Shown piece by piece: positions 41 to 62,100 of a stretch of 64,000 bases of DNA. The position numbers and the translations under genes are program-made. Source of the DNA: Sphaerosporella brunnea (taxonomy: Eukaryota > Ascomycota > Pezizomycetes > Pezizales > Pyronemataceae); assembly GCA_008704415.1 (NCBI GenBank), contig VXIS01000011.1:62001-126000 (forward strand), in the 5' to 3' direction. The notes beneath the pieces were generated by a model that worked only from the letters and a program-made list of their open reading frames with translations, was not told where the DNA came from and ran no database searches. Position 1 is the first letter of the stretch, and each line of letters begins with the position of its first letter.

Positions 41-2125
41 ATGCTACCACTCAATATTCTTCTGCTCGTTCTACCTCTTACGGCCTTGGCCGCGCCCATC
101 AAGCCAATTTTTGGCAGCTGGGGCAACGCCGTCATGCCTTTCAAGACCGGCAAAGCCAGTGATAAGTGGAATCCAACACCTGAACCGGAGTTCGCTCCCG
201 CGTATCCTCCCGCGTACCCTCCTGCCTACCCTCCTGCATATCCTCCAGCGTATCCTCCCGCTCAATATCCTCCCGGTCAATACCCTTCTGATCAATATCC
301 TTCCGGTCAATATCCTTCCTATCAATATCCTCCGAGCGGATATGTTCGCCCGGCCGCCCACTATCCTCCTGGTGCTTATCCGCCCCCTCCCTATTCCCTT
401 GCTTCCTATCCTCCCACGTCCTATCCTCCAGGCGGATGCTCTCACTCGGCCACCCCCTATCCACCCAGTTCTCCTCCCTCCAGTTCCTACCAGCCTGCTC
501 CCTACGATAAAAGCCGCCTGATAAATGTTGGAGGAATCCGAGGGACTCCACTGCCACCCTCAACACCTCCGCCTCCTCCCGAGAATGAGGCGCCCACCTC
601 CGAGCCCTCTCTTGTCGCCCCGTCCGCTGAGCCCATTGAAGCTGCCGAAATCGGAAGGAAGGGACAGAAGCAAGCAAAAGAGTCCTCGGCCAGAAGCGAC
701 GTAACACGTATGGCGGCCAGCAACTCAGTGGCTCTATTCAACGGCGTTCCCGTGAATCCCACAACCGGTCGCCCCATCAACCCTCCTGCGTCTGGCTCCG
801 ATGAGCCCAGCTTACAAAAGCGCTCTGCCGACCCGGGGCTCCTTAAGAAGAAGCTGGGACTTGACTTCCTGAGCGATCCTAACATCAACGATGAAGCTAT
901 CCGCGAACACATGAGGTCCCCCGAGATTGGGAAGGGTCTTGCTGAGCCGAAGGGAACCTACGAGAAGGGGCCGATCTCGAGTCAGGAGCACCTACTGGGA
1001 CAGAACGATGTTCCCCTTCCCGCTCCTGCACCGGCTCCTGCCATTGAAGATCCTTCTCCTACCGACCAAGAGGATGCCCCGGCTGAAGCTACCGACTCGG
1101 CAGCTCTTGCAGTCACCCAGGAAGTTCAGCGCCAGCAGCGCCCATGGAGCGGTGGCTCCTACATGATCTTTAACGGTGTTGCTACTCCTGTTGGCGGTGA
1201 TATCACTAGTGCCGCTCTCGGGGCCGCCAAACTCGATCCCACCTCGGATGAAGACTCTGCTCTCAAGCTTCACAAGCGTAGTGGCGGCGTCCGGAACAAG
1301 CTTGGCCTGGGAATGTTTGATATGCCCAGCGTGGGTGGTCGGCGCAAGACGACACCACCTCCTGAGCCGCCGTGCGAAGAAGAGGCGGAAGAGGGTGAGG
1401 ATGAGGATGCAGGGAACATCAAACGGGCCGACGAAGCGCAAGAGGAGCAGGAAGCCGAGCAGGAGGTTTCTGAGGCCGAGGGCAGGGTATCGGAAGGCGT
1501 TTCTCGGGCCCGCGCAGCCCAAAAGAACCCGGAGGCTGCTGCGGCTGTTCCTGCTGCTGCTGATCCAGCCCCGGAGGCGCAGTCACAGGCGGCTTTTGAA
1601 GAGGAGCTCGGACTCGCATACGATGACCTTCCCACTGGCAAGAGCTTTGTCATCTACAACGGCCAGCCGGTCGAGTACAACAACGTCCCCATCGGCCGAC
1701 CCAAGATCAAGAAGCCCCGTCCCGCCTTCCGGGGAGAGCGCATTGGCGACGACGACGGCTGGGCGAAGAAGGCAAGGCTCGCCAAGCGCGATCCCGATCC
1801 CACTCCTGGAAGAAAGTACACCGGCATCAACCCGTTCAAGAACAACCCGCTCTCTGGATCCCACCTCGAAAAGGAGAAGAAACAGCACGAAGACTATGCT
1901 CGCGCCACCGAGTCCGCAAGTGGAGAAACTAATCAGCAGCGCCGCGAGACAAAGATCAGCGAGCTCACCCCGCACACCTCCGAGGATGAAATGGTCAATA
2001 TTAAGGTCGGTGACTCGTATGCGCTTTTCAATGGCCAGCCCATCAGTCTGGGGAGTCTCAAGGGCGAACCGGCGACGCAGCCCAACGCTATCGGCAACTT
2101 TTTTAAGGATGGCGTAATGGCTTGA
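41..2125 (+). CDS. Secreted proline-rich repeat protein with Kex2-type cleavage sites (KEP-like)
   Basis: A single-exon, 694-residue protein. It opens with a hydrophobic signal peptide (about residues 1-18, ending ALAAP). A Pro/Tyr-rich stretch follows, with five tandem PAYPP units near residues 53-77 and further YPP/QYP units to about 150. The rest contains four copies of a short motif, [SY]-x-[ILV]-[FY]-N-G-x-[PA], near residues 227, 372, 535 and 657. Lys-Arg sites follow copies 1, 2 and 3 (near residues 257, 413 and 585), with another near 460. After the first two of these sites a KLGL motif recurs. Signal peptide plus repeats separated by KR is the design of fungal Kex2-processed repeat proteins, so release of several peptides in the Golgi is inferred. 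It could instead be a cell-wall protein in which the KR sites are not used. No catalytic domain is visible. The start is the first Met and directly begins the signal peptide. Confidence 0.8.
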   Translation: MLPLNILLLVLPLTALAAPIKPIFGSWGNAVMPFKTGKASDKWNPTPEPEFAPAYPPAYPPAYPPAYPPAYPPAQYPPGQYPSDQYPSGQYPSYQYPPSGYVRPAAHYPPGAYPPPPYSLASYPPTSYPPGGCSHSATPYPPSSPPSSSYQPAPYDKSRLINVGGIRGTPLPPSTPPPPPENEAPTSEPSLVAPSAEPIEAAEIGRKGQKQAKESSARSDVTRMAASNSVALFNGVPVNPTTGRPINPPASGSDEPSLQKRSADPGLLKKKLGLDFLSDPNINDEAIREHMRSPEIGKGLAEPKGTYEKGPISSQEHLLGQNDVPLPAPAPAPAIEDPSPTDQEDAPAEATDSAALAVTQEVQRQQRPWSGGSYMIFNGVATPVGGDITSAALGAAKLDPTSDEDSALKLHKRSGGVRNKLGLGMFDMPSVGGRRKTTPPPEPPCEEEAEEGEDEDAGNIKRADEAQEEQEAEQEVSEAEGRVSEGVSRARAAQKNPEAAAAVPAAADPAPEAQSQAAFEEELGLAYDDLPTGKSFVIYNGQPVEYNNVPIGRPKIKKPRPAFRGERIGDDDGWAKKARLAKRDPDPTPGRKYTGINPFKNNPLSGSHLEKEKKQHEDYARATESASGETNQQRRETKISELTPHTSEDEMVNIKVGDSYALFNGQPISLGSLKGEPATQPNAIGNFFKDGVMA

Positions 2126-2278
2126 GGGTGTGTGCGGTTTGGTGTTTGGCTTGGTTTAATACGTGTACTTAGTTAATGTAATGTGATTTGAGCCAGATGA
2201 TTTATTCAATACCGTAATCAACTTCAGGGTATATTAGAAAAAAACGCTTATCAATTCAAATCCCATCCTCCTTCCCAT

Positions 2279-2389
2279 CTAGTTATCGCCCGAGTCCTCG
2301 GGAGGCCGACGCGGGCAGCCGCAAACAGTGCACATCGTCATCGATTCAAGATAGTGCACGAATTTGCAGCGGTGACATCTCCAGCCCAT
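2279..2389 (-). CDS. Zinc-ribbon microprotein 1 of 6 (36 aa)
   Basis: A 36-codon reading frame that starts MGWRCHRC and has a second cysteine pair, CTVCGC, 11 residues on. The pattern is W-x-C-x2-C, a spacer, then C-x2-C-G: one treble-clef or rubredoxin-like zinc knuckle and little else, apart from a short Pro/Arg/Asp tail. It is the most 3' member (lowest coordinates) of an array of six related minus-strand frames between 2.28 and 4.89 kb. Their shared W-x-C-[PH]-x-C...C-x2-C-G layout is the evidence that it is a gene. The Met sits two residues before the Trp, as in member 2. Function is unknown. Zn binding is inferred from the cysteines. Confidence 0.6.
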   Translation of the reverse strand: MGWRCHRCKFVHYLESMTMCTVCGCPRRPPEDSGDN

Positions 2390-2667
2390 GGCGGTGATTA
2401 TGTAGCTCGCAGAGAGGTTGTTGCTCGGGGGAGGGGATTGGGGTTGGGAACAGGGGATTTATATGAATTTTATTTTGCAGTTCCTTTTGCGTGGGCTTAG
2501 GCTCGAGTTGAGCGGACAACTTCGAGATGGGGGGATGTGTGTGAGGTGGAATTTGAGCCAGTTACTCTATTCCAACTCTGATCACGGCTACAGACAGCTA
2601 GTACAGCCCCACTCCCCTCCCCTTCCCTCCCCCAGATCAGATGCAGTTGCGCGTTGATGCTTCTTTG

Positions 2668-2751
2668 TTATCGCACTAGCCCGCACCAGTCGCAGGTGCT
2701 TTCTAGGTCGTTTTTGTGGATGCATTCGCAGTGGGGGCATTGCCAGGACAT
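2668..2751 (-). CDS. Zinc-ribbon microprotein 2 of 6 (27 aa)
   Basis: The smallest intact member, 27 residues. It begins MSWQCPHC and has CDWCG near its end, followed by only three residues. Layout is W-x-C-P-x-C-x11-C-x2-C-G, the core shared by the array. The frame stays open upstream to 2922, but that stretch reads through a C-homopolymer and pyrimidine tract typical of a leader. The Met at 2751, two residues before the Trp, matches member 1 and is preferred. Function unknown; a single structural zinc site is inferred. Confidence 0.6.
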   Translation of the reverse strand: MSWQCPHCECIHKNDLESTCDWCGLVR

Positions 2752-3112
2752 CTTTGCGGGCTTGATGGGTCGGTGGTGCTTATGCTGGCGGTAGTTATGG
2801 TGACGATGCGGGAGAAGGGAGAAAAAAAAAAGCCGGGGGGGGGGGGGGAATATATGGATGTATATGGATGGGTTTTCTGGTTTTGTAATTGGCGCCAAAC
2901 GATGAGGTTGGGTAGTTGGCATGCAAATTCTCTCGACCGGACATTAACCAGAGGTACAGGTACGGTGTTTGTTGTGCGTGCTGTTTGAATCAATGTCATA
3001 CGGAAATACAAACACCCCAACGCCGGTATATGGTCATATATGCAAAGTGCTGCAAACGAGCCGAACCGAACCATGGCACCGTCACCACCACCACCATAGC
3101 CCGCCCATCATC

Positions 3113-3283
3113 TCAGACTTCGTCAAAATCCGACTCGGCACAGCTCGAGTACCCTTCCAACTCGAAGTACCCACAGCACTCGCACCTCATCGTCGTGGCG
3201 AATGGGTGCGTGCGCGTGTGTTTGTGGCAGTGAGGGCATTCCCACGCGATATCCGGATCCAACTCGGCGTCGTGGTTGGGCAT
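3113..3283 (-). CDS. Zinc-ribbon microprotein 3 of 6 (56 aa)
   Basis: A 56-residue frame: an acidic 13-residue lead-in, then the zinc knuckle (AWECPHC, 14-residue spacer, CECCG), then an acidic tail ending SDFDEV. It is the longest of the six. The leader just upstream carries two copies of a CAACAAAATCAT-like motif running into CAACAATG, a good fungal start context, and a C-homopolymer of about 15 further up (3344-3358 on the plus strand reads as G). Met 3283 is chosen for that context; the frame is also open to 3439. Function unknown. Confidence 0.65.
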   Translation of the reverse strand: MPNHDAELDPDIAWECPHCHKHTRTHPFATTMRCECCGYFELEGYSSCAESDFDEV

Positions 3284-3611
3284 TGTTGATGATTTTGTTG
3301 ATGATTTTGTTGAGGGAGGTAAGGGAGTAAGGGAGGTAAAGAAGGGGGGGGGGGGGGGGTTATGAAGGAAGGGGGATGGGATGGGATGGAAGGGGTAGGG
3401 GAAACGGAATTGAATGCGGTTGTGGCCCATGACATGCAACCATCCGACACCTGCGGCGATTGCGCGTCGCTTTTCGGATTCACGATGTCACGTAGCATGT
3501 AGAAGTCCAAGATTATTAACCAGGGGAAAAAAAAAATTGATATTCAAAAAGAAAAATGCCGCTTTTCATTATCGGTGTTAAATCCGGGCAGGTGGAGGCT
3601 CGCCCACGCCG

Positions 3612-3712
3612 CACGGGAGGAATAAATCCACACCAAGGGTACTTCACCTTTTCGCCGGAATTGGGTCCGCAAAGCTGTGCTCTTCGCACTTTGGGCACTT
3701 CCAGTGTGTCAT
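3612..3712 (-). pseudogene. Zinc-ribbon microprotein 4 of 6, frameshifted remnant
   Basis: The first half is intact: MTHWKCPKC from Met 3712. The frame then stops at 3644 before a second cysteine pair is reached. In another minus-strand frame just downstream lies the expected second half, but with Tyr where the first Cys of the pair should be (Y-P-W-C-G-F-I-P). The WCGFIP part is encoded by the same 18 nt (3619-3636) as in member 5 (4211-4228). So this looks like a duplicate of member 5 that suffered an indel and lost a ligand. A spliced gene is possible (a gtgaag donor lies at the break) but would still lack that Cys. Confidence 0.55.
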
Positions 3713-4191
3713 GATAAAGCTGTCGGTTTTGTTTGTTGCCATGGTTGGTTGGTTGGTTGTACAGTTGATGGTTGTGCCCAATGCCATGGCCTTACATATA
3801 GCTTAGGACGCCGTTCTCGGGAGTTTAATTCGAAATCGTTGCTTGCAAGGTGGGATGGAAAGCGGCGTTGAAGTGTGGCCGGATGGGAGTAGGAGCAGTA
3901 GAGACCTGAAGCCGTTTGGATAATAACTTACCTTGAGTAATTGTGGAGGGAGCCAGAAACCTGTAAGATAGGAGAGGCTTTGCTCAATGGGACAAGAATA
4001 TAAACAAATGTACGGAGAATGTGTGATCTGTGCATGTGTCTAACGGAACGCCGTGCAAAGCGTGGTGGCGAAGTGCATGTGCACGTAGCAGTCAGGTTTC
4101 AACGGCTCTATGAAGTTGCTCTCTAGAATAACTACAGAATACTTAATTAGATATCCCTTCCTGATATATATATATATATATCCGGTTCCTC

Positions 4192-4314
4192 TCAGCCAGA
4201 AGAGCAAAGTGGAATAAATCCACACCAAATGCAGGCGAGTCTCTCGGCGGGCCGCAACATGTTATTTCCATCGCATTGCGGACATTTCCACAGAATTAGG
4301 TCTCTGTCAGTCAT
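4192..4314 (-). CDS. Zinc-ribbon microprotein 5 of 6 (40 aa)
   Basis: A 40-residue frame with an eight-residue lead (MTDRDLIL), then WKCPQC, a 13-residue spacer, and CIWCGFIP followed by a short tail containing one more Cys. The Trp before each half of the knuckle and the Gly after the last Cys match members 3, 4 and 6. It shares an identical 18-nt segment with broken member 4, so the two are recent duplicates. An AT dinucleotide run (about 4166-4181) lies just past the stop. Function unknown; one zinc site is inferred. Confidence 0.65.
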   Translation of the reverse strand: MTDRDLILWKCPQCDGNNMLRPAERLACIWCGFIPLCSSG

Positions 4315-4763
4315 AGCGCGGTTCGCGAGAGCTAGATATAGGTATGACTGATCTTGGATTAACTTTTTGGTCGCCTGGGGTTTGTAGATCAGAATGGTCG
4401 TTTATGTAGGGAGGAAATATCTGGAAGGAGGGAATGCATGATAACTCGGTTTTGCGGAATTGAACTGGCGTGGTTTCGAAAGCAAAATAGGAGGATTGAA
4501 AACACGTGTACACTCGCAACTCTTTCAATTGCAACAGGCAAGCAAACGCGCAAGGGGCACTGCAAATTGTGCATTCGGGAGATACAATCAAGGTGCAACG
4601 TTTAGATTCAAGGTGAGCGAGCTGATAGGCACCACATCACGCCAAGGTATGGAAAACAAAAAAAAAATATGCCACATGCCTCATGTATGCACTCAAGAAT
4701 AACCGTTCATTTAATCAACTACCGTGTAACCCGACGCCGGTGCTAAATCCACTCCAGATCCCA

Positions 4764-4889
4764 TCACTTCGAGGAATAGCCACACCACACGCAGACAAAA
4801 TAGGGACACTCAGGTTGTAGAACGGTGTAGTTGCCACATTGCGGGCATGGCCAAGTCGCCACGCTTAGGTCGATCCCTGGAACCTGCAT
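4764..4889 (-). CDS. Zinc-ribbon microprotein 6 of 6 (41 aa)
   Basis: A 41-residue frame and the most 5' member of the array. It has a 12-residue hydrophobic or polar lead, then WPCPQCG, a short spacer containing one extra Cys (PECPYF), and CVWCGYSSK at the C-terminus. The start context CATCACAATG is good for a fungus. Spacing to member 5 is about 450 bp, like the other intervals in the array. This regular spacing suggests each unit carries its own promoter and 3' end. Function unknown. Confidence 0.65.
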   Translation of the reverse strand: MQVPGIDLSVATWPCPQCGNYTVLQPECPYFVCVWCGYSSK

Positions 4890-5148
4890 TGTGATGGAGA
4901 TGGGTTTCTAGGTAGGCGGGCTACCACGTCTGCTATGGATCTTGATGTAAGGAAGGGAATATTGAGCGCAATGGCCATGATTTGTAGTTCATTATATGAG
5001 CAATTGCTTCCTTCATTGGTTCTCCCACCCCATCATGAAGCTCTGCTTCTTCTTGAAAATAGTTTCGATTCGAACGACCCTAGAAAAGTGAGGGTATAGA
5101 AGGAAAACTTTCCAATTCAACGGAAACTGCTACTGCACCTATAGCCAG

Positions 5149-5973
5149 TAGTGATGGACACGAGCCGAGCCAGCTCGAGCCAGAAGCTCGAGCTGACGAG
5201 CCGAGCCGAGCCAGCTCAAGTTTTCACCATGATCGGTGATCGGGGGTTCTGATGGGGCGGGTTGATGGGAATGGAAATTACAGCGAGTGTCGTACAATAA
5301 AAACAGACAATCAAATGTGTCATGTAGAAACCTCGAGTCGCTTGTTCCTGTCACGCAACGCAATGCTACCTACCTACCCTTCAGCGGACCATAACTATCA
5401 ACTTCCAGCGGGTGCACCACCGCCAGAAGAGCTATGGCAGACAAATCGACGGATGCACTGCCCCGGGAGAGCGTGCTTCTTATTTTAAAAAGCTATCAGG
5501 GAACTGGGGTATACTCACTGAATGCTCGCTAATATCCCTCTATACCACAAGTGTCCTGGCTGAGAATCTTTTCTCCCAACCTGGAGATCTTATTACCAAA
5601 AAGCGAAACAGACTCTTGGAAACCTCAAGTAGCGCTTGCTTGTTGCTTAAAAGCTGGTTGGGGCAGGATGATGTGGAGCAGTGGGAACGTGAAAGGTTAA
5701 GCAAGGAGGATGCAGGAGACATCGACAGTGGGAATGAGGTTCCGGTCCCCGATACCCATCAGCAATCACTGCTAGATAGTGAGAATGATGCGGATAACGA
5801 GGAATTGTAGCCAGTTTATATTTCTAGATATGTTGAATACTATTACCTATTTTTATGTGGTAAAGCGGAACAGCTCGAGCTGCAGCTCGAGCTCACCCAG
5901 AGCTCGGACGCGAGCCCGAGCCTCCACCTCTACGAGCCGAGCCAGCTCGAGCTGACCTTGGAGGATCGATTCG
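5149..5973 (+). mobile_element. hAT transposon, internally deleted copy
   Basis: The left end begins TAGTGATGGACACGAGCC and is followed by dense GAGCC/GAGCT subterminal repeats. The right side (about 5870-5960) carries the same GAGCC/CTCGAGC repeats. Between them, 5412-5810 encodes the C-terminal dimerisation part of a hAT transposase: AENLFSQPGDLI, then KKRNRLLETSSSACLLL and an acidic tail. The catalytic region is missing, so this is a non-autonomous deletion derivative. The same left end and the same C-terminal segment recur at 36.8-39.3 kb. The exact right end and target duplication could not be fixed. Confidence 0.75.
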
Positions 5974-6018
5974 ACAGGTCGTTTATAACGTTCATCACTT
6001 CGTTGAAGAAGTACATTG

Positions 6019-36844: not shown

Positions 36845-37119
36845 GACCGTCGCGACAGCAACAAGCGACTCGAAGTTTCCACATGACGCAGTCAATTTTG
36901 ATTATTTGTTTTTATTCTACAACACTCGCTATGATTTTCATATTCCCATCAACCCTCCCCATCAGAACCCCCCATCATGCTGAAAAGTCGAGCTGGCGCG
37001 AGCCGATCCCCCACCCTCAGCTCAAGACAGATCGACTCGTAGAGGACGAAAGATCGGATCGGCTCGGCTCGTCAGCTCGAGTTTCTAGCTCAAGCTGTCT
37101 CGGCTCGTGTCCATCACTA
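36845..37119 (-). mobile_element. hAT left terminal fragment, inverted
   Basis: The reverse complement starts TAGTGATGGACACGAGCC at 37119 and stays alignable with the left end of the element at 5149 for about 270 bp, including GAGCTGACGAGCCGAGCC and GGTTGATGGGAAT. It lies in the opposite orientation to the transposase segment at 38.4-39.1 kb, so the copy was rearranged or these are two insertions. Confidence 0.7.
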
Positions 37120-38439: not shown

Positions 38440-39310
38440 TGGAATCTGTTGAACAAATATTGGACCGCCACCGACGATTATACTGCGCAGCGTATTGCGC
38501 TGATCCTCGATCCCCGCTGCGAGTGCCACAGTTTTACACAAATGAGTTGGCAGCCATCATGGATTTCTAACGCGCGGTGGCAGTGCCAAACAGTCTGGGA
38601 ACCGGACTACCTCAATTTTGCTCTCCCTACGGCTCCGACTGAGGACGGCTCAACAGCTTCTTCCCACGCTGTGGAGAACCTTCTAGATGAAGACTTGGAC
38701 TTTCTTTTCTCTTCGCCAGCAGCCAGAGTTGCAGAGACGGTACAAGCGTGCGAGGTCAACCCTGTGGATTGGTGAAAAGCGAATGGCCATCGTTTCCCAA
38801 CACTCGTCAGAATGGCTCGCGACTATCTCTCTATACCAGCCACAAGTTTCCCGGCTGAGAGACATTTCTCTCAAGCTGGAGATCTTATTGCCAAGAAGCG
38901 AAACAGGCTCTTGGTGACCTCAAGCAGCGCTTGCTTGTTGCTCAAAAGCTGGTTGGGGCAGGATGATTTGGAGCAGTGGGGACGTCAAAGGTTAAGCAAG
39001 GAGGATGCGGGCGAGATTGACGGTGGAGATGAGGTTCCGGTCACAGATACCCATCAGGAATCACACCTGGACGGTGAGAACGATGCGGACGCTGAGGAGT
39101 TGTAGCCAGTCATCATACGGTTTATTTTCTTAGATGAAAGACCGCGAGTTCAATACTATTACCTAGAATTAACAGAGTCCGCGAGCTTGAAGTGTGGTAA
39201 AGCGGGAACAGCTCGAGCTCACCCAAAGCTCTGATGCAATCTCGAGCCTCCGCCTCTACGAGTCGAGCCAGCTCGAGTTGACCTCGGAGGATTGATTCGA
39301 GCTGGCTCGT
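38440..39310 (+). mobile_element. hAT transposase C-terminal half and right subterminal region
   Basis: An open stretch from 38449 gives LNKYW-type start, LDPRCECHSF, a stop codon at 38773-38775 (TGG to TGA), then in the same frame KANGHRFPTLVRMARDYL, SIPATSFPAERHFSQAGDLI and KKRNRLLVTSSSACLLL. This is the hAT C-terminal dimerisation domain. It is followed by GAGC/CTCG repeats to 39310. It is about 85 percent alike the 5.5-5.9 kb copy by eye. The right end lies only about 80 bp from the VPS28 stop codon. Confidence 0.75.
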
Positions 39311-59100: not shown

Positions 59101-62100
59101 TTCCATAAACATCCTCATTATTCAAATCTTCTGTGATCCACTGTCTGAGCTTTTCCTTGCGCTTGGCGATACGAGTCTTGGCTAGCTCTTCAGTCTTGCG
59201 GTTCTCCTCGGTCACGAACGCTTCCCAGGATTTTGACAAGGCGCCGTAAAAGAAAGCATCGAGTTCGGTCCTGTGATCGTCGATCCAATACAGCCACGTG
59301 TCATTGTCCTAGCTCCGTCAGTCTTGCATTGCTATCAACACAGATCCCTTACCAGTTCCATCAGCTTTCTGAATCCCGTGGAGAGCTGTTTATGGTCGAT
59401 ACTCTTGGCTTGGTTCAACAAGACTGCTGTCTCCGCCGGCTTTTGAACCAAGACTATCCGAAGCATCTAGCCAATGAATCAACAAACGTTCGTGGACGAA
59501 GGGCGGATAAAGTACATCTGCTGCAGCGATCTTGAGGTCATGTCTCTGGTCAATGAGTCTAGTATAGAGCAGATAACATATCAACCTCGTAAATTCGCCA
59601 TCCGTATTTTCTGGAGAGAGAATAACGGTCTGCCAATACATCATCTTGTTCAGGAACTCCACAATGTGCTTGGGATCCGTCTTCGAGTCGTCGAGCTCAG
59701 AAAGCCGGAACATTACAATCCTAGAGACGACAGATCGCAGATTGTTGACGCTCTGAGCACATAGCCGCACGCTTTTGAGCTTCGAAACATCCGGACGTTG
59801 CAAATACTCCAGGATAGTTCCCACAAAGTCCAACAAGATCTCGGCCCCGTTTAAGAACCAGCCCTCATAGATGCAGTCTGTAATGTGCAGCGCAAAGCGT
59901 GCAATATTAGTCAACACCCTCGTCTCCGTCAACTTCTTCATGTCGAAGCTGATGAGGTTCTTGATATGTGTGATCGTGTTCCGTAACAGATATGTCTCGA
60001 AATATATCTGGTGCTCTTGGAATCCTGGTGGAATCTTTGTGTTCAATCCGAATCCGGTGAAATCCCGCCTCTCTAACACCATATCCTCAAAAACCGACAT
60101 CACCAGTTCCATCACGCTCTCGACAAGGCTGTTGTACCCAACCAACCCGGCCCCAACAACTTTCATATTCAGTCCAGATCCTATTCCGGGCGTCAATCGT
60201 GCAGAAGAGGGCCCATATTCCGTTGGCTCCTGAGTGACAAGTATAAAAGAGGAACCCCTTCTTAGCCGTTCCGATGTAGAGCGTCCACTAGTCGGCGTAA
60301 GTGGCCGATCCTCAACAGTGACAGTCCTCACTATCGGAGGTGCCGTAGTAGACACGAGCGGGCGAATAACGACGTCGCCACCATCAAACGTCAAGGCCGA
60401 GTCCCGCGAGTTCAGTTCCGTCTCGGCACTGACATGATCCGAGCTGCAAATGACCGGGAACAGAATCCCGAAGAGCTCTTGAATGAACGTCGAAGAGACG
60501 CAGAATTCACGAAACTGTGGACACGTAGAGTGCAAGTGCGAGACAAACTGTATTATTGTTTGCAACATCTTTGTCAATTCGACCATGCGTTTCTCCGAGG
60601 TTTTGCTGCCTACAAGTGGAATGAAATTGGAATCAATGCATGAACAGATACTGGTGATTGGCTTGAGCTCACCTTGAGCTAAGCCTGCTGTGGCTTGGTC
60701 ATTGAGAGATAGCGATCTCTTTCTCAAGGACTTCGGGACTTCCAATGCAGCCTTCTCTTTCCCTGTTCCACTGTCTTTGTTTTCATCTTCCGAGAGCCCC
60801 GCGACCACCGTTCCGATTCCGGCTTTGAGCATGGCAGCTATCACAGGCAGAACTTCCGGATACACTACCTTCGCCTTGTCGCCATCTGAAAACGCTTCCA
60901 GCAACGCAAAGAGATCCACGGGCCCATCCACGTCTACCTTCGCTACGTCTTTGCCGAACAGGATACAGAAGCATATCGACCACAAGGGCGCAACATTCCA
61001 CCATCTCTTCAGTCGGTGTTTCATGATGACAAATCCGCCCGTCTTGCTGGCGAATTTGGACACGTAGCTGCTGCCGTGGATGACTAATAGTCTAGCTAGG
61101 ATCTTTGCGCCTAGAAGTACCACCTTGGGCTCGCTCTCCGCCAGGAGGTACAGGAGCCACTATTTATCTGCAGTCAGCCACATGTTCACGCTTGTGCACA
61201 CTCCAGACGCCACGACAAAGTGTAGACTTGCCTTATTTGTCACTGTCTTCGCGAACTTCTTCAGATTGGCAGTTCCATTTCCATCCTCGCATAACAGGTT
61301 GTGATACATCTCTAAAACCATGACTCCGATTTGCTGTCTGGTAAAGCTCTCATCTTTGAGATCTCCCGACACGCCGACTGGCGTCAAGTATCCAGATTTG
61401 GGACCTGCTCCAGACATGGAAGTGAGCCCACCAACCCGGCTTCGAAGCTGTCCATTGCTCTTCTTAACCCTAAGGGGACGAGATGGATTGTGCTTATGGA
61501 GTGAATAAGTGATGAAAAGTGATAAAGACCGCAACACATCGGCAGACATATTTGACTTGACAAGAACCGTGAAAGCTGCCAGGAAATCTGGGAGAATCTC
61601 TCGACTGAAAACCTCTGCCTTCAAGGCATAGAGAAGCTTCTTCACAATACGCATCCGGACAAGTCGTTTCGAGTTGAAGTGGTGATATTTGCTGCCACTC
61701 GTAAACATCAGAAACTGCGCAAAGTATTCCCGCTGAGTCTCGATATCAGCCGTCCTCCAGACGTCGAAGTCGACCAAAAGTATTCGATATGCCAAGGGGT
61801 TTATTATGAAGCTCTCCTCTGGAGCATCGTGTCTGTAGCCAACGAAGTCCAGCACAAGTCTGAGCAGGTCGCGTCCAACAACTCCATTTGCATCCTTCTG
61901 CCTGATGAGATGGCTCAGGATGGCAAACCCGTTCTCGCGCTCCATTGCCTCGCTATTTCTCCAAGAACCCTTGATCATCTCAAAGAGAATTGCCACTGCG
62001 CGGCATACTTGGCTTGGTGTGCTAGCTACTTCAACCATCTTTAGGCCTATCGCAGCAGCCCCTCCGATTTTCCATGCCGCGTCGTCGAGAGATTGTGGGA

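Follow-up and report, generated by a model that had tools for sequence, protein, structure and literature searches.

What is encoded by a row of very small reading frames, all in one orientation and most of them bearing the same two pairs of cysteines? The question is raised by a 64,000-nucleotide stretch of the fungus Sphaerosporella brunnea (contig VXIS01000011.1 of assembly GCA_008704415.1, forward-strand positions 62,001 to 126,000), which is called the window here and whose positions are counted from its first letter. Between 2279 and 4889 its minus strand carries six small frames, each running from ATG to stop, and five of them share W-x-C-[PH]-x-C, a spacer and C-x2-C-G within 27-56 residues. 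The answer we favor, at a probability of about 0.6, is that they form an unannotated family of predicted CPxCG-type zinc-ribbon microproteins, laid out as a tandem array and built as stand-alone binding modules.

The five intact members differ in length and in the residues around their cysteines. Member 1 (2279-2389, 36 residues) reads WRCHRC, 11 residues and CTVCG, its first knuckle having the form C-H-x-C, while member 2 (2668-2751, 27 residues) reads WQCPHC, 11 residues and CDWCG. Member 3 (3113-3283, 56 residues) has WECPHC and CECCG separated by 14 residues and a net charge of -9; member 5 (4192-4314, 40 residues) has WKCPQC and CIWCG separated by 13; and member 6 (4764-4889, 41 residues) has WPCPQC and CVWCG separated by 14. 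The frames of members 2 and 3 stay open 5' of their ATGs (2668-2922 and 3113-3439). Every intact unit begins with an ATG of its own and ends at a stop codon 3-18 residues past C-x2-C-G, and its protein contains five or six cysteines. The other members are 29-42% identical to member 5, and the columns invariant across all five are the initial Met, the Trp, the four Cys and the Gly. The original prediction had located all six frames and the second cysteine pair of the five intact ones correctly. It gave the spacer as 5-15 residues, where direct reading gives 11-14, and the spacing as about 280-550 bp, where the coordinates give gaps of 278-479 bp. Its name for the proteins, 'one-knuckle', is a misnomer because two knuckles make a single ribbon.

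As the original prediction had held, the recurrence of this pattern is not a product of chance, although it is complete in five frames and not in six. When W-x-C-x2-C-x(5-15)-C-x2-C-G is sought in all six frames of the window, it is matched five times, always in the array and always on the minus strand. The full four-Cys pattern occurs in none of 2000 dinucleotide shuffles of positions 2201-4950 and in none of 250 shuffled windows (16 Mb). The remaining unit, member 4 (3644-3742, minus strand), is broken. It aligns with member 5 and retains WKCPKC alone, with a stop after the first Cys pair and the second knuckle in another frame; its frame is 22 residues long from the ATG at 3712 and 32 from an upstream start in better context, ATGGC, at 3742. 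The out-of-frame remnant of the second knuckle, the codons for W-C-G-F-I-P at 3619-3636 on the same strand, is identical over 18 bases to 4211-4228 in member 5, and a TAC (Tyr) codon stands opposite the third Cys codon of member 5.

Judged from its DNA, the array is the product of tandem duplication, with similarity that is clear among neighbors and worn elsewhere. The 15 pairs of units were aligned with their flanks, and each was compared with 200 simple (single-base) shuffles. Four pairs (members 1/2, 3/4, 3/5 and 4/5) beat every shuffle; the real score was reached by one shuffle for members 3/6, by two for 5/6, by four for 2/3, and by 8-150 for the remaining eight pairs. The alignment z is 6.4 for members 1/2 and 4.4 for members 4/5, and simple repeats raise some of the pair scores, most of all that of members 3/4. 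In the pair 1/2, positions 2409-2176 align with 2772-2539, a match that begins ahead of the start codon and continues for over 100 bases beyond the stop, and within the 3' flanks positions 2186-2207 are 82% like 2551-2572. Similarity that spans the start and the 3' flank shows that whole units were copied.

Two further features lie between the units. Upstream of members 2 and 3, at 2835-2848 and 3344-3359, are long runs of G (of C on the minus strand), which sit in similar stretches about 510 bp apart. Upstream of member 5 and outside all frames of the family, window positions 4421-4500 are 73% like C390:195672-195769, a shared repeat or regulatory piece; the C390 stretch that was read contains no four-Cys frame, and C390 was not retained as a relative of the family.

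Relatives were sought in the 50.6 Mb assembly (640 contigs) by reading the places that match W-x-C-P-x-C or M-x-W-x-C-x2-C. A second pair of frames, at C116, lies on one strand about 860 bp apart and encodes 76 residues (MAWKCPHC..CECCGY) and 51 residues (..WKCPHC..CICGY); the shorter has a second knuckle one residue shorter and finds the longer by protein search (expectation value, E, 2e-4). A single frame of 48 residues at C70 agrees with member 2 in 25 of the 27 nucleotides from the ATG (92.6%), an agreement with an estimated chance of about 2e-4 given the motif selection. C322 encodes a relative of about 51 residues in two inverted copies that are 99.7% alike, and C110 carries a looser form of the pattern. 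Frames beginning MGWKCPKC and lacking the final Gly occur on C82, C188 and C290 and, interrupted, on C267. The repeat that carries them is dispersed, measures about 1.2 kb, is 88-98% alike in its four copies (L182, L187, L188 and L189) and may be moving the microprotein frame along with it; a 39-nucleotide inverted repeat lies near the frame in L182.

At least 101 distinct W-x-C-P-x-C contexts were read, and in 21 of these a second Cys pair lies near enough to belong to the first, several of the 21 being other proteins (RanBP2-type fingers, a two-ribbon family, chance-like frames). This census leaves out the window repeats L009-L011, L034 and L035, hence members 5 and 6, and also member 1, which lacks the Pro. 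In a protein search of the same genome member 5 finds member 6 (E 0.001). A match of C116b to C479 (E 0.27) was discarded, as no four-Cys frame is present there. On these sequence comparisons, a family within the genome is well supported for the array neighbors, C70 and C116, and less so for the others.

The family has no name in the profile collections. Pfam gives no family at cut-off for the six window frames or for the tested relatives C116a, C70, C110, C82, C322 and C116b, and none of the NCBIfam cut-offs seen is reached by the five intact members, the best E among members other than 5 being 0.0027. The ribbons of UPF0547, Zn_ribbon_3 and DZR (PF10571, PF13248, PF12773) share the arrangement CxxC, about ten residues and CxxCG-[YF]. 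These ribbons are usually parts of larger proteins, and the family scores below the 29-bit cut-off: UPF0547 membership is rejected, since its profile reaches at best 21.5 bits (C322) and 12 for C116b and is unlisted for the window frames. Rubredoxin and the rubredoxin-like domain of rubrerythrin (PF21349) are likewise short CxxC/CxxCG ribbons, but the match of member 1 to PF21349, 11.4 of 26.5 bits (E 0.23), is below cut-off, and membership is rejected here too. A profile search of the PDB lists 193 sequences with an E of 10 or less, the best at 0.007; the best 60 of the 193 are rubredoxins, ribosomal S27ae, TFIIB, RPB12 and similar, and the rubredoxin matches span just 11-14 positions. A literature search found no description of such a fungal microprotein family. 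In a study of fungal small open reading frames, zinc ion binding is a class of 22 predicted members, and a word search of that paper finds neither cysteine nor tandem (PMC7394265); kin of the family may be present among those frames. The claim of an undescribed gene-like family keeps its support from tandem duplication, from the small size, from the retained Trp, Cys and Gly, from relatives in the genome and from the lack of a Pfam or NCBIfam name and of a match in the protein database, while gene status and zinc binding are what we infer.

How might such small proteins work? The roles put forward in the original prediction (RNA or ubiquitin binding, metal buffering, secretion-independent effectors) are speculative. 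Every unit would be a short, intronless gene of its own, and the four cysteines of its product would bind a single zinc ion, near which the invariant Trp would pack. The ribbon would span about 20-25 residues, so that member 2 would be little more than ribbon. With this core kept while tails and loops diverge, each copy would present a different surface on one scaffold, and tandem duplication would generate variants of the module. Such a stand-alone module would attach to another protein or to a nucleic acid and modulate it, much like the archaeal CPxCG micro-proteins, Brz for example. Net charges that range from -9 in member 3 to +6 in the relative C116a suggest different partners rather than one common nucleic-acid target, and copies that share a scaffold but differ in surface look more like binding modules than like a storage protein. 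The array proteins are probably such modules.

The best functional precedent for these modules comes from archaea. CPxCG-related small zinc finger proteins, which occur in archaea and bacteria, are defined by a length below 100 residues and by a pair of Cys/His patterns with 7-40 residues between them, of which one or both resemble CPxCG (CPxCG, CPxCx or CxxCG), in the available part of the source (PMC2253796). All six frames have the required length and five have both patterns (spacers 11-14), member 4 lacking an in-frame second pattern. Brz, HVO_2753 and HVO_0758 are, like the array proteins, small and single-domain with two Cys pairs, and many such proteins are unannotated. In the sections available, bop mRNA falls when Brz is lost (PMC2253796), and swarming is impaired in the absence of HVO_0758 or HVO_2753 (PMC10716476). 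The array differs from these archaeal proteins in being fungal, in its tandem arrangement and in its invariant Trp two residues before the first Cys. Member 2 has just 27 residues, whereas the available text on Haloferax volcanii reports no C(P)XCG protein under 30 (PMC11241148). The likeness is one of design, and common descent is not inferred.

Whether the frames are genes is the first point at which the evidence divides. In the duplicated units, third codon positions differ among the codons of the invariant residues (TGC/TGT; CCC/CCT/CCA/CCG; GGC/GGG/GGA) without a change of residue, and a purine occupies position -3 at all six starts, member 4 being taken at 3742. Pyrimidine content upstream is higher (mean 0.60 versus 0.54, p about 0.04), a difference driven by members 2 and 3 and not relied on. 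On balance, the frames are likely to be genes. Several results, however, weigh against the family of zinc-ribbon microproteins. Codon usage ranks the array frames no higher than other open reading frames of the region, and a purine at -3 is common there (33 of 51 ATGs). In the own-genome protein search members 2 and 3 and C322 each recover nothing but themselves, and the sole match of member 1, on C169 (E 0.034), was rejected because no W-x-C-x2-C frame lies there. A profile built from five outside members places window members 2, 5, 4, 1 and 3 at the head of 1908 fragments, with E from 1e-6 to 0.14 and below 0.01 for three of the five, and member 6 only 13th, but this test is partly circular because the outside members had been found by motif. 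A database of 5.8 billion proteins holds no homologue detectable with the query frames A2 and A4; this negative is weak, because the search requires three shared 5-residue words and frames so short are seldom annotated. As a control, VPS28 from the window finds Pezizales proteins in that database, the named ones including Trichophaea hybrida (73%), Tricharina, Pyronema, Geopyxis, Wilcoxina, Morchella and Tuber, matches that place the fungus probably in Pezizales and perhaps in Pyronemataceae.

Counts of the half motif belong on the same side. W-x-C-P-x-C has 169 matches in the genome against 62 for its reversed control, but the permuted W-x-C-x-P-C has 220, more than the motif itself, against 96 for its own reversed control. 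A narrower form of the half motif gives 19 matches against one reversed and 11 permuted, and a further pattern gives 90 against 20 for a reversed control only. Dinucleotide shuffles lead one to expect about 82 and 79 matches per genome for W-x-C-P-x-C and W-x-C-x-P-C, and recurring words among the matches of the latter indicate that repeats inflate such counts. Half-motif enrichment as proof of a genome-wide family was therefore dropped, since a permuted pattern of equal composition is commoner, and only the complete four-Cys pattern and similarity at the DNA level were used as evidence. The same holds for the half motif that the original prediction had seen in all six frames: WKCPKC is indeed present in member 4, but on its own the half motif is weak evidence.

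Structure prediction is similarly reserved. With the five window members as input, AlphaFold2 gives models of low confidence (predicted local distance difference test, pLDDT, 68.3 and 68.6, the latter for member 6; predicted template modeling score 0.42 and 0.39) with a short strand pair around the first knuckle, and no Foldseek match reaches E 0.001. The top non-significant matches are RNA polymerase I chain I, TFIIB and S27ae, plus unrelated entries, for member 5, and large-subunit ribosomal chains, HVO_2753 and RNA polymerase I chain I for member 6, where HVO_2753 stands second in the list (6ydh, E 0.69). Apart from the unrelated entries, these chains are zinc ribbons, and the models and profiles point weakly to this fold. 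According to the available part of one study, AlphaFold2 cannot tell whether such sites hold metal, and five of 14 purifiable archaeal Cys4 micro-proteins are zinc-free (PMC11241148).

These doubts have to be set against what other explanations would require. The array could consist of decaying relics of an old microgene tandem duplication, with most copies disused and the intact cysteines as leftovers, which is unlikely but deserves consideration: one of the six members is visibly broken, a hAT-like element splits the dispersed C267 copy, the codon usage is unlike that of genes and a transposon remnant adjoins the array. Relics would not readily explain why five of six members have kept the Trp, four Cys and Gly though the DNA of many pairs aligns no better than shuffles, or why the codons at these residues differ synonymously only; this retention is not a clean test of selection, because the choice of columns is partly fixed by the motif. 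It is far less probable that the six frames are exons of a single spliced gene for one multi-ribbon protein. They lie on the same strand with one ribbon per frame, and a two-ribbon microprotein family occurs in the genome, but the intact units each have an ATG and a closely following stop, the duplication of members 1/2 takes in the 3' flank with its stop, and the 278-479 bp between frames would make long introns for a fungus.

The remaining explanations accept the proteins and assign them other roles. The array proteins follow the W-x-C-x2-C ... C-x2-C order of RanBP2/NZF fingers (PF00641), and minimal fingers of this kind would bind ubiquitin or single-stranded RNA. The RanBP fingers of YAF2 and MDM4 are among the non-significant Foldseek matches, and C116a has an Arg/Ser/Gly-rich tail and the consensus RanBP2/NZF spacing C-x3-N-x6-C, which is also present in C110. 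The spacing is absent from all five intact window members, whose spacers are 11-14 residues rather than 10, and no window frame or tested relative has PF00641 among its matches up to E 10 (a range in which HMMER filters drop most matches above 0.1). The profile does work on this genome, where two of three RanBP-like fingers picked by eye exceed its cut-off; on these scores RanBP2/NZF membership is rejected, and a finger-like role appears improbable. Metal buffering, in which Cys-rich micro-proteins would store zinc or another metal as metallothioneins do and copy number would raise the dose, is about as doubtful. Metallothioneins have dense Cys clusters, whereas the single four-Cys site with invariant Trp and Gly resembles a structural ribbon, and the copies diverge outside the site rather than being dose copies. 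What speaks for buffering is the density of five or six cysteines in 27-56 residues, the tandem amplification and, in the available text, the non-zinc metal carried by certain archaeal-type Cys4 micro-proteins (PMC11241148).

The stand-alone zinc-ribbon micro-proteins found described are archaeal and bacterial, and a diverging tandem family of them in a fungus would point to a class of folded proteins overlooked by fungal gene catalogues. The array would offer five natural variants of one minimal scaffold for asking about the size limit of the ribbon and its binding partners. More tentatively, and with the odds somewhat against it, the array may belong to a Pezizomycete superfamily of CPxCG-type ribbon microproteins that has escaped gene callers. 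It would comprise proteins of 27-76 residues with one ribbon and of about 57-59 with two, would owe its spread to tandem duplication and to dispersed repeats, and would have in the 27-residue member one of the smallest stand-alone ribbons. Such a superfamily would be a eukaryotic counterpart of the archaeal zinc-finger micro-proteins.

Two-ribbon microproteins of about 57-59 residues are found at L013, L142, L114 and L125 (C130 twice, C29 and C83). Their pattern is M..E-[ILM]-CPxC..CxxCG..[LV]VWxCPxC..CxxC, and the second ribbon resembles the window family; a Pfam scan of three of the four frames gives no family above cut-off.

The array is flanked by other elements. Window positions 41-2125 (plus strand) encode a 694-residue protein, rich in proline, that starts with a hydrophobic stretch and contains repeats of F-N-G-x-P-like segments; Pfam gives no family for it at E 0.001. 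Beside the array, and outside the family, lies a hAT transposon remnant at 5149-5974, with PF05699 in the frame 5412-5810; the same element family occurs in L188. More hAT remnants lie at 36953-37119 and 38490-39310, and an element similar to all three window remnants is the one that interrupts the C267 copy of the MGWKCPKC frame.

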